Source of the DNA: Victivallis vadensis
Lineage (GTDB): Bacteria > Verrucomicrobiota > Lentisphaeria > Victivallales > Victivallaceae
NCBI RefSeq assembly: GCF_003096415.1
Contig: NZ_QEKH01000002.1
Coordinates: 62,001-126,000 of the forward strand
Reading direction: 5' to 3'
Length of the DNA: 64,000 nucleotides
A program made the position numbers and the translations under genes. The notes beneath the pieces are model-generated. The model did not search any database. It was not told the origin of the DNA and worked only from the letters and a program-made list of their open reading frames with translations. Every line of letters begins with the position of its first letter. Positions within the stretch are counted from its first letter, which is position 1. Below are positions 51,771 through 56,489 of this stretch, piece by piece.

Positions 51771-53174
51771 ATGAAATATACGAAGATCGTGGCGACGATC
51801 AATGCGTCGACCTGCACCGAGGAGCTGTTGCGCGGACTCTACAAGAACGGCATGGACGTGGTCCGGCTGAACACCGCCCACATGGAAATCGCGGATATGG
51901 ACCGGATCGTGGCGCTGGTGCGCAAGGTTTCGGATAAGCTGGCGATCATGGTCGATACCAAAGGGCCGAATATCCGCACCTGCAACCTCGATGCGCCACT
52001 CGCGCTGAAGATCGGAGACAAGCTCGACCTGACCGGCGAAACCGTGCCGCAGGAAAAAGCGGTTCAGGTGAACTACTCCAAATTCACCGCCGAAGTTCCG
52101 GTCGGAGCGCGGATCATTTTCGACGACGGCGCGATGGAACTGCTGGTGCTTGGCAAAAGCGGCGGCCTGCTGCACTGCGAGGCGAAGCGCGACGGCGAAC
52201 TCAAGAATCATAAATCGGTGAACGTTCCCGGCGCGGAGCTGAAAATGCCCGCGCTGACCCGTAAGGACCGGGACTTCATCGAATACGCGGTGAAGAACGA
52301 CCTCGATTTCATCGCCCACTCTTTCGTGCGCAGTGCGAACGACGTGCTGGCGGTGCGCAGCATCCTCGACACCGGCGACAGCGATATCCGCATTATCGCG
52401 AAGATCGAAAACCGGCAGGGGGTCGACAATCTCGACGAAATCCTGAAAGCCGCCGACGGCGTGATGGTCGCGCGCGGCGACCTCGGCATCGAAATTCCGC
52501 TTGAGGAAGTGCCGCTGATCCAGAAGAAACTGATCCGCGCCTGCATGGCGGCGGGCAAGTCGGTGATCACCGCGACCCAGATGCTGCAGAGCATGGAGAA
52601 CAGCCCGCTGCCGACCCGCGCCGAAATCAACGACGTCGCGAATGCGGTCTATGACGGCACCGACGCGGTGATGCTTTCGGGGGAAACCGCCGAGGGGGTG
52701 TATCCGGTCGAAGCGGTCAGCGTGATGAGCCGGATTCTGGAGGAGACCGAGAAGTCGCCGGATTATTATTTCACAAGGGTGCGCGAACAGATCAGCGATT
52801 CCGACGAAAACTCCGCTTTCCTGATCCATTCCGCGGTCGAAGCGGCCGAACGGCTGCCGGTCCGGGCGATCGTGTGCAATACCGCCAGCGGGCTTTCGGC
52901 GCGGCTCTGCGCCGCCTATCGTCCCCGCAAGCCGATTTTCGCCTTCAGCTACAATCCGGGCGTGGTGCGGCAGCTGTCGCTGACCTACGGCGTTTACGCC
53001 GGTTACAATGCATTCGCGGAGGATGTGATCGACCTGACCCGGCAGACCTGCCGGACCCTGATCGAAGAAAAGCGGCTGGCTCCGGACGACAAGGTCGCGA
53101 TGCTGGCCAAGAATTCGCAGTCGATGGAGCGCAACAACCTTTTCTGCCTCGGAGCGGTCAAAGACTTTATCTGA
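51771..53174 (+). CDS. pyk: Pyruvate kinase
   Basis: 467 residues, the usual size. It converts phosphoenolpyruvate and ADP to pyruvate and ATP. Motifs are IAKIENRQGVDNLDEI (catalytic Lys and Glu), MVARGDLGIEIP (metal Asp), TATQMLQSM and YDGTDAVMLSGETAEG. The N-terminus departs from the common form: KIVATINAST in place of KIVCTIGPAS, RLNTAH where the usual RLNFSH supplies a Ser to the potassium site, and DTKGPNIR with Asn where most enzymes have Glu. Bacteroidota enzymes show a similar KIVAT/MNSAH style, so this is probably lineage-related. Confidence 0.95.
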   Translation: MKYTKIVATINASTCTEELLRGLYKNGMDVVRLNTAHMEIADMDRIVALVRKVSDKLAIMVDTKGPNIRTCNLDAPLALKIGDKLDLTGETVPQEKAVQVNYSKFTAEVPVGARIIFDDGAMELLVLGKSGGLLHCEAKRDGELKNHKSVNVPGAELKMPALTRKDRDFIEYAVKNDLDFIAHSFVRSANDVLAVRSILDTGDSDIRIIAKIENRQGVDNLDEILKAADGVMVARGDLGIEIPLEEVPLIQKKLIRACMAAGKSVITATQMLQSMENSPLPTRAEINDVANAVYDGTDAVMLSGETAEGVYPVEAVSVMSRILEETEKSPDYYFTRVREQISDSDENSAFLIHSAVEAAERLPVRAIVCNTASGLSARLCAAYRPRKPIFAFSYNPGVVRQLSLTYGVYAGYNAFAEDVIDLTRQTCRTLIEEKRLAPDDKVAMLAKNSQSMERNNLFCLGAVKDFI

Positions 53175-53373: not shown

Positions 53374-54369
53374 TCACACGATATTGAAAAACTGTTCGGC
53401 ATTTTTATAAAACAGCATATTCCGTTCCTCGACGGTCATCGGCTGGCGGTCCAGGAAGGTCATGGATTCTTCCATGGTTTCATACGGATAATCCGAGCCG
53501 AACAGGATATGCTCCATTCCGAACGTCCGCTTCGCCGCCTCAAAAGCGATTGGAGCGAAGTTGCCGCTGGTCGTCATCCAGATATTGTTTTTGAAATAAT
53601 AACTGGGCTGATGCCGGCTTTTGACGGTCGGCGCGTTCGGAACCATGGACGCTCTGGCATCCATGCGGTCAAGCAGCACGGCCATCGCTTCGCCGTAATG
53701 TCCGAGGATCATTTTCAGATTCGGATTGCGGTCGAAAGTGCCGTTGTAAATCATCCGGGCGATCGTGATCAGGGTTTCAATGGTGAAGCCGAACGCGGCC
53801 GACCCGAGCTGCCAGCCGTAGCCGGAAAGCCGGTCGATCGACCCGCCGTTCGGATGCAGGTAAAACGGCACATCAAGCGCCCCCATGCAATCGAAAATCG
53901 GCGCAAAGCGTTCTTCGTCAGGATAACAGTCGCCATAATTGGAGTGAGTCATGACTCCGACAAAGCCGAGCTCCTGAATGCAGCGCTTCAGCTCCGCCGC
54001 GGCGGCCTCGGCGTCGCGCACCGGGAGGACGGCAAATCCGAGAAAACGGCCGGGAAACCGCCTGATCACTTCGGCGATGCGGGTATTGCTTTTACGGGCA
54101 AGCTCAACGGCTTCAGGGCCTGACAGCATTTCAATGCCGGGGGAACAGCCGAGAATCTGTTTGGTCACCCCGAAACGATCCATTTCACTCAACCGCTGTT
54201 CCGCAAAGTCGAACAGCCCTTTGTAAACATACGGCACTTTTCCCATGTCGAGGGGACAGTCCTTCCCCAAGCTCAGGACTTTGCTCTGCGGGTTCCACAT
54301 CCCGTTTTTTTCCAGAGCGGTAAAAATTTCCGGAGTGTAGTAGTGAGCTTCAAAGTCGATCTTTTTCAT
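53374..54369 (-). CDS. Amidohydrolase_2-type metal-dependent hydrolase/decarboxylase, likely separate start
   Basis: 331 residues if translated from the internal ATG at 54369 (MKKIDFEAHYYTPEIF). The fold is amidohydrolase 2, as in gamma-resorcylate and related decarboxylases. It has FEAHYYTP in the place of the ExH motif, FYLHPNG (metal His), LGHYGEAMAVLLDRMD (His/Glu) and LFGSDYPYE (Asp). It probably acts on a small aromatic or carboxylic acid; the substrate is unknown. It is in frame with tilS without an intervening stop. A promoter-like pair (54416-54444) and a ~35-residue low-complexity bridge suggest that it is also, or only, made from this start. Confidence 0.8.
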   Translation of the reverse strand: MKKIDFEAHYYTPEIFTALEKNGMWNPQSKVLSLGKDCPLDMGKVPYVYKGLFDFAEQRLSEMDRFGVTKQILGCSPGIEMLSGPEAVELARKSNTRIAEVIRRFPGRFLGFAVLPVRDAEAAAAELKRCIQELGFVGVMTHSNYGDCYPDEERFAPIFDCMGALDVPFYLHPNGGSIDRLSGYGWQLGSAAFGFTIETLITIARMIYNGTFDRNPNLKMILGHYGEAMAVLLDRMDARASMVPNAPTVKSRHQPSYYFKNNIWMTTSGNFAPIAFEAAKRTFGMEHILFGSDYPYETMEESMTFLDRQPMTVEERNMLFYKNAEQFFNIV

Positions 54370-55815
54370 AGCGCCGTTTCTTGTTGTAGATTTATTTTGC
54401 AGAACTGACAGTTCAAACTTATCATCGGAAGATGATTTTTTCAAGTCAGGAAAAGGCGACTGCTCATATTTTTCCCGTCCGGCACATCTTGCATGAATGA
54501 AACGGAGGCGCAGGATGCGCCGGGTTTCCGGCGTGACCGGCGCGTGGATGGTGTGGCGGATCAGCGGAGCCCACAGGATCGTCCCGTCCGGTGACGTGAC
54601 CACCGGGCAGGGCGTGGAGGCGGGAATCCCCCGGCCGGTTCGCAGTTTCTTCAACGAGACCGGTTTGCTTCCGCCGAAGGGGATCAGTGCGTCTCCGGCT
54701 TCCCTTGCGCGTACGGTCAGCGTTTCCGGCAGGCGGTCTGCGTCGAACAGCGCGACGGTGCAGTCCGGCGGCGGGCCGGGAAAGGTTTCCAGCCATTCCA
54801 CGCGGAGCCGGAACGGGCCGAAACCGATTTCCGTTTCCTGATCGAACTTCCAGGTGAGGCGGGGCAGGGCCGCCGCCGCCGCGATCTGCAGGGTATCGCC
54901 CTGCAATCGCAGGCTGATTCCGCTGTGCACCGGGATCAGGCGCGGTTCCGGCTTCGGGGCGTTCAGCTCGCTTTGCAGCCGCCTGACCAGTTCGGGCGGC
55001 GGGATCAGGTCGGTTCCGAGTTCGGCGCGGAACCAGAGCCGCAACACCCGCACCAGCAGCGCCGGATGCAGTTTTCGCCAGAATGCGGCGGAGCCGTCCA
55101 GCTCCCGGAAGCGCCGTTCCGCCTCCTGTTCCAGAAACTCCGCATCCAGCTCCAGCACGTCGAGCGAGTGGCGCAGGCCGGCCTCGGAGCCGGGGAGCTT
55201 CGCGTAAAATTCCGGCAGCAGCCGGTTGCGCAGCAGGTTGCGGCGGAAGCGGTTTTCGGCGTTGCTGGAGTCCCGCGCCCATTCGCTGATTCCGTTTTCA
55301 TGCAGGAACTCCTCGATTTCGGTGCGGGCAAAGCCGAGCAGCGGGCGCAGGAAAATCACGTTGTCCACCTCGGAACGGCTCCGCATTGAGGTAAGCCCGG
55401 TCGCGTTGGAGCCGCGCGCGAGCCGCAGCAGCAGGTTTTCGGCACGGTCCCCGGCGTGGTGTCCGAGTATCACCGCGGAACCGGGATTCTCCCGGACCAG
55501 TTCTTTCCACACATCGAGCCGGGCGGCGCGGGCGCGGCTTTCGAGGCCGGGGCCGGGAGAGAGCGCCAGGCGGACCAGCCGGAATTCGATGGCGCAATTT
55601 CGGGCGAACCGTTGCGCCGCCTCCGCTTCGGCGGCGGATTCCGCGCCGCGCAGGCCGTGGTCGAAGTGGATGGCGGTCAGCCGGTAGTGAAAGATTTCCT
55701 GGAAACGGCGGGCAACCAGCAGCGCGGCGGTGCTGTCGGCGCCGCCGGAAAAGCCGACGAACAGACGGCCGTGTTGAAAAGGGGCAAAAAGTTTGCCGCA
55801 ATCGTCAAGTTTCAT
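53374..55815 (-). CDS. tilS: tRNA(Ile)-lysidine synthetase TilS joined in frame to an amidohydrolase
   Basis: An uninterrupted 813-codon frame from the ATG at 55815. Residues 1 to about 450 are TilS: PP-loop SGGADS (23-28), HFDHGLRG, GHHAGDRAENLLLRLARGS, RPLLGFARTEIEEFL and NRFRRNLLRNRLLPEF. TilS adds lysine to C34 of the minor isoleucine tRNA so it reads AUA. Residues about 451-482 (EKYEQSPFPDLKKSSSDDKF...) look like translated intergenic DNA. From residue 483 an amidohydrolase follows. No bifunctional enzyme of this kind is known to me. Loss of the tilS stop codon, or an assembly error, is as likely as a true fusion. Confidence 0.85.
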   Translation of the reverse strand: MKLDDCGKLFAPFQHGRLFVGFSGGADSTAALLVARRFQEIFHYRLTAIHFDHGLRGAESAAEAEAAQRFARNCAIEFRLVRLALSPGPGLESRARAARLDVWKELVRENPGSAVILGHHAGDRAENLLLRLARGSNATGLTSMRSRSEVDNVIFLRPLLGFARTEIEEFLHENGISEWARDSSNAENRFRRNLLRNRLLPEFYAKLPGSEAGLRHSLDVLELDAEFLEQEAERRFRELDGSAAFWRKLHPALLVRVLRLWFRAELGTDLIPPPELVRRLQSELNAPKPEPRLIPVHSGISLRLQGDTLQIAAAAALPRLTWKFDQETEIGFGPFRLRVEWLETFPGPPPDCTVALFDADRLPETLTVRAREAGDALIPFGGSKPVSLKKLRTGRGIPASTPCPVVTSPDGTILWAPLIRHTIHAPVTPETRRILRLRFIHARCAGREKYEQSPFPDLKKSSSDDKFELSVLQNKSTTRNGAMKKIDFEAHYYTPEIFTALEKNGMWNPQSKVLSLGKDCPLDMGKVPYVYKGLFDFAEQRLSEMDRFGVTKQILGCSPGIEMLSGPEAVELARKSNTRIAEVIRRFPGRFLGFAVLPVRDAEAAAAELKRCIQELGFVGVMTHSNYGDCYPDEERFAPIFDCMGALDVPFYLHPNGGSIDRLSGYGWQLGSAAFGFTIETLITIARMIYNGTFDRNPNLKMILGHYGEAMAVLLDRMDARASMVPNAPTVKSRHQPSYYFKNNIWMTTSGNFAPIAFEAAKRTFGMEHILFGSDYPYETMEESMTFLDRQPMTVEERNMLFYKNAEQFFNIV
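54416..54444 (-). promoter_or_regulatory. Internal promoter before the amidohydrolase part
   Basis: On the minus strand, TTGAAA (54439-54444), 17-base spacer and TAAGTT (54416-54421), with a small hairpin (ATCATC-TTCC-GATGAT) in the spacer. It lies inside the bridge between tilS and the amidohydrolase. Confidence 0.45.
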
Positions 55816-55868: not shown

Positions 55869-55883
55869 GGAGATGGATTGATT

Positions 55884-56489
55884 ATGGCTTATATTGTCGC
55901 CGCCACCGCCAATGCCCACAAGGTCGACGAGTACCGCAAGCTGCTTGAAGGGCAGAATGTCGAACTGAAGTCGCTGCTGGATTATCCCGGTTTCCCCGGG
56001 GTCGAGGAGAACGGCAGAAGTTTTATCGAAAACGCCGGGATCAAGGCGCTGGCCGCCTGCAAATACTGCGACGTGCCCGCGTTTGCGGACGATTCCGGGC
56101 TGGAGGTCGAGGCGCTTGACGGCCGCCCCGGCATCTATTCCGCCCGCTATGCGCCGACTGACAAAGAGCGGATCGCCAGACTGCTGGACGAGATGAAAGG
56201 GCAAACCAACCGGCGCGCCCGCTTCGTCTGCGCGATCGCGATCGCGATCAACGGCGAGGTGATCGAGAGCTTCGAGGGGGAGATCAAGGGCACGATCGTC
56301 GATGCGCCGCGCGGCGAAAGCGGCTTCGGCTACGATCCGGTCTTCCAGCCGGACGGGTACGACCAGACCTTCGGCGAGATGGCTCCCGAATTGAAGAACC
56401 GGATCAGCCACCGGGCGAATGCGTTCAAATTGGCGATGGAGTTCGTCGAGGATGAGATGTCGGTGCTGGACGACGAGTTCGACCTGTAA
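55884..56489 (+). CDS. rdgB: XTP/dITP pyrophosphatase (RdgB/HAM1 family)
   Basis: 201 residues from the ATG at 55884, with AAGGAGA upstream. The start IVAATANAHKVDEYRKLL corresponds to the family's 'T.N..K..E' motif; FADDSGLEVEALDGRPGIYSARYA and GFGYDPVFQPDG follow. The enzyme hydrolyses non-canonical purine nucleotides such as XTP and dITP and so protects DNA. It leads a plus-strand group that continues with plsC and envelope genes, although plsC has its own promoter. Confidence 0.95.
   Translation: MAYIVAATANAHKVDEYRKLLEGQNVELKSLLDYPGFPGVEENGRSFIENAGIKALAACKYCDVPAFADDSGLEVEALDGRPGIYSARYAPTDKERIARLLDEMKGQTNRRARFVCAIAIAINGEVIESFEGEIKGTIVDAPRGESGFGYDPVFQPDGYDQTFGEMAPELKNRISHRANAFKLAMEFVEDEMSVLDDEFDL

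Follow-up and report, generated by a model that had tools for sequence, protein, structure and literature searches.

A continuous reading frame through tilS and an amidohydrolase gene in Victivallis vadensis: probable loss of the tilS stop codon between two neighbouring genes

Results

The window analyzed here is a 64,000-nucleotide stretch of Victivallis vadensis DNA (RefSeq assembly GCF_003096415.1, contig NZ_QEKH01000002.1, positions 62,001 to 126,000), and its source genome is a 5.2 Mb draft of 87 contigs. On the minus strand of the window, positions 53374-55815 contain 813 codons without a stop, spanning TilS and Amidohydro_2 proteins that are each complete. An earlier note on this DNA had described such a frame, and the ORF itself and the Pfam and NCBIfam matches in its two halves bore the description out. 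The 813-codon ORF occurs once in the genome, on contig C2. It is flanked by an rdgB/HAM1-like gene (55878-56489, plus strand) divergent from tilS and by a pyruvate kinase-like gene (51771-53174, plus strand) convergent with the amidohydrolase gene, both of which were named by eye. Comparison of gene order by tblastn showed the divergent tilS-rdgB pair to be constant across the family, and the genes downstream of tilS to vary among genus members (L046-L053). In none of the relatives examined did pyruvate kinase adjoin tilS, and in most of those where it was found it lay on another contig. The 3′ side of tilS in the genus (L046-L053) looks as if it were a frequent point of rearrangement.

The first part of the frame, codons 1-440 (54496-55815, minus strand), is the only copy of tilS in the genome; its product we take to be tRNA(Ile2) lysidine synthetase. 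ATP_bind_3 was matched at residues 18-197 (Pfam, E 2e-41) and lysidine_TilS_N above its cut-off (NCBIfam, E 1.6e-41, 142 bits against 93.6), and the SGGxDS pattern of the PP-loop is present as FSGGADS at residues 22-28. The TilS_C match at residues 366-427 was weak (16.9 bits, gathering score 22). Orthologs were found in 9 of 9 genus genomes, and in the other eight species the proteins are 45-54% identical to that of the window and 443-470 aa long, each ending at its own stop. Their alignment with the window protein extends through about residue 440, where conservation stops, and the tails beyond this point vary between species. A frameshift within the conserved part was rejected, because the alignment keeps to a single frame as far as residue 440 or so. 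A 740-codon tilS frame in genome G024 was also rejected as a fusion, its extra length arising where the open frame continues upstream of the gene.

The last part of the frame is a gene of 331 codons (53374-54369, minus strand) whose own ATG, at 54369, is M483 of the joined frame. Amidohydro_2 (PF04909) was matched at residues 537-811 of the joined frame (E 3e-39, 138 bits), and the protein is the only close relative of its kind in the genome. Over most of its length it resembles gamma-resorcylate and 5-carboxyvanillate decarboxylases of solved structure (PDB 3s4t, 2dvt, 4icm and 3nur; E down to 1e-49), with which it shares the ExH, H, H, D pattern of a metal site; the similarity is, however, only moderate, and the protein is a putative decarboxylase-type enzyme. 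The predicted metal ligands are E7, H9, H172, H224 and D293 in the 331-aa numbering, their roles being those known from 2dvt.

Stand-alone relatives of this enzyme, 38-41% identical to it, were found in three genomes from a different family within the order (G177, G216 and G348, the G348 gene being cut by a contig end). These proteins begin MKKIDCEFHYYLPE, in register with MKKIDFEAHYYTPE at M483, so that MKKIDCEFHYY in the window stands against MKKIDFEAHYY in the relatives, and counting from M483 the ExH motif falls at residues 7 and 9, as in enzymes of the gamma-resorcylate decarboxylase type. From this shared start register and the position of ExH, the amidohydrolase is complete from M483, and the bridge between the two parts belongs to neither conserved enzyme. 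The ribosome-binding sites of the relatives are good: a clear GAGGAG precedes the ATG in two of the three, and the third has AAGGAAGG. No clear Shine-Dalgarno sequence was found before the ATG at 54369, where the upstream sequence is aacaagaaacggcgctATG; in this genome only 74 of 213 sampled genes have one at their mechanically called start. The amidohydrolase and tilS genes are on different contigs in all three relatives, and the two were side by side in no other genome examined.

The bridge itself comprises codons 441-482 (42 codons, 54370-54495, minus strand) and gave no Pfam match. Its GC content is 0.41, compared with 0.67 in the first 440 codons (TilS) and 0.54 in the amidohydrolase part, and its GC3 is 0.31, versus 0.81 for TilS. 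With codon statistics trained on a 384 kb sample of the source genome, the bridge scored -0.32 per codon, where the mean is +0.36 for coding and -0.35 for intergenic windows, and lower scores were obtained by 0.11% of coding and 51% of intergenic windows; the intergenic sample may include missed short genes, the effect of which, if any, would be to bring its scores nearer to coding. In GC and codon score the bridge lies below 99.7-99.9% of coding windows, a composition unlike that of a coding linker, and no deeper internal trough was seen in the 162 sampled ORFs with 300 codons or more. The bridge therefore appears to be the former 3′ end of tilS plus an intergenic spacer, open in the tilS frame.

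Hairpins, terminators and promoters were looked for in the same 126 nucleotides. Two hairpins are present, ATCATC-ttcc-GATGAT and GAACTG-t-CAGTTC, but taken over its full length the bridge is hardly more prone to fold than shuffled copies (z -1.45); no intrinsic terminator was found within it on the tilS strand. The best promoter-like pair at spacing 17, TTGAAA-N17-TAAGTT, agrees at 8 of 12 positions, and a standard scan returned no promoter on the tilS strand of the bridge, where a strong sigma-70 promoter is absent. The earlier note had called the bridge AT-rich and low in similarity to either family, and had placed in it a promoter-like pair and a small hairpin: the GC content and the blank Pfam search agree with the first description, and of the elements the hairpins are present and the promoter-like pair is weak and was not returned by the scan. 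Two short palindromes before the amidohydrolase ATG, at 54402-54414 and 54421-54436 (GAACTGtCAGTTC and ATCATCttccGATGAT), are possible operator sites. Comparison of the bridge DNA with viral contigs found nothing.

The other two reading frames close early in the bridge, with a TGA at codon 450 in frame +2 (54466) and a TGA at codon 458 in frame +1 (54443), both positions lying inside the genus TilS length range of 443-470 aa. Nineteen of the 42 bridge codons are one substitution away from a stop, and shuffled versions of the bridge remained open in the given frame in 5.5% of cases. Accidental opening is hence unlikely at any single gene pair, though not across a whole genome.

Relatives were searched for the same join, as the earlier note had proposed, and none was found: it is present in 0 of the 8 other genus members, all of which carry tilS as a separate gene with its own stop. 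No other frame near 815 codons was seen among the tilS matches listed, whether from the family or from 388 genomes of the phylum, and a scan of genome contigs with the joined protein recovered only two distant relatives, one for each half. As far as seen among the relatives examined, the join appears peculiar to Victivallis vadensis. A literature search for TilS fused to an amidohydrolase returned nothing relevant.

A different TilS fusion is present outside the family but within the order. In genus g26 a NUDIX (MutT-like) domain is joined in frame to the C-terminus of TilS, with full-length proteins in 11 of the 13 species searched (for example L089:1326-3140(+), L090:1291-3141(-), L091:1348-3162(+) and L092:1302-3116(-)); the proteins are about 604-616 aa long and share 48-85% identity with that of G216, and their junction is short, conserved and almost linker-free. 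Since it is conserved in so many species and with such a junction, TilS-NUDIX is very probably a real, evolved fusion; a literature search for TilS fused to a NUDIX enzyme found nothing relevant.

Discussion

Known partners of TilS provide a measure for the joined frame. TilS and HprT are fused in some bacteria other than Bacillus subtilis. In B. subtilis the tilS and HprT genes have one nucleotide in common, and their products associate in a complex (PMC8152036). The locus in the window is like TilS/HprT of Bacilli in that a second enzyme is encoded directly downstream of TilS, and like TilS-NUDIX of g26 in that a second enzyme domain has been added in frame at the C-terminus, within the same order of bacteria. 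The TilS/HprT pairing recurs, however, whereas in the window TilS is paired with an unrelated amidohydrolase, in one species, across a bridge that looks non-coding; and unlike TilS-NUDIX, the join in the window has neither conservation between species nor a short conserved junction.

We consider it probable that two adjacent genes on the same strand became one frame when the tilS stop was lost, the open frame being accidental and the join serving no selected function. Recent loss of the stop had been among the suggestions of the earlier note, and it is supported by the separate tilS genes of all the other genus species and by the intergenic composition of the bridge. Because the stops in the other frames fall within normal TilS length, a single indel or substitution, whether biological or technical in origin, could be enough to join the two genes. 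By this account tilS and a metal-dependent, decarboxylase-type amidohydrolase would have been ordinary same-strand neighbours about 40 codons apart, the amidohydrolase occupying, in Victivallis vadensis only, the variable region that follows tilS. A single substitution or a small indel would have removed the tilS stop, either in the organism or, possibly, in the assembly alone.

If the sequence is right, ribosomes on the tilS mRNA must run on past the former end of the gene, as no intrinsic terminator was found in the bridge on this strand, and must produce an extended TilS of 813 residues whose tail is probably a by-product rather than a selected partner. TilS is essential in bacteria; given also that the gene is the sole copy, the extended form would have to work or be trimmed. 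The amidohydrolase retains its ATG at 54369 and is likely made as a separate enzyme from M483, with a weak ribosome-binding site and, if any, a weak promoter in the bridge; as no strong sigma-70 promoter lies there, its expression may depend on transcription of tilS. The earlier note's further suggestion, that both products are made, is plausible.

A special case of stop loss is that the join is unreal, a single-base assembly error, such as one in the runs of GGG or AAAAA near 54467-54476, having opened the frame, so that the true tilS would end at about codon 450 or 458. Both TGA codons would give a TilS of a length usual in the genus, the assembly is a draft, and with conserved TilS and the full amidohydrolase both intact any error would be confined to roughly 50 bases between them. 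Against this, the neighbouring genes are intact and no direct sign of an error was seen. A sequence error is nonetheless a real option, since the join hangs on one base within a short stretch, and we hold it to be quite possible, though somewhat short of an even chance.

The earlier note had also raised a novel bifunctional protein, a suggestion that gained no positive support: that the frame encodes a bifunctional TilS-amidohydrolase retained by selection, recently born and fixed in this species when the stop and spacer were turned into a flexible linker some 40 residues long, is improbable, very much so in our estimate, for although the frame is real as sequence and open, with catalytic motifs kept in both halves and each half the only good match in the genome, and although TilS tolerates C-terminal partners (as in the conserved TilS-NUDIX of a related genus) and some solved amidohydrolase relatives, e.g. 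4inf, have longer N-terminal ends, the join was seen in one species only among the listed matches, the linker is unconserved and has intergenic codon usage and composition where TilS-NUDIX is almost linker-free, and the ancestral start codon of the amidohydrolase is still at the exact homologous place. We know of no pathway linking lysidine synthesis to aromatic-acid decarboxylation.

The locus calls for caution, as automatic annotation of the frame would yield a new bifunctional TilS-amidohydrolase where the evidence favours stop loss, or a base error, between two ordinary genes. Of the two TilS fusions described here, TilS-NUDIX is the more interesting. If the sequence in the window is real, the joined frame would be a young fusion, arisen by accident, between a metabolic enzyme and a tRNA-modifying enzyme that is essential and present in single copy, and would show how fusions can begin.
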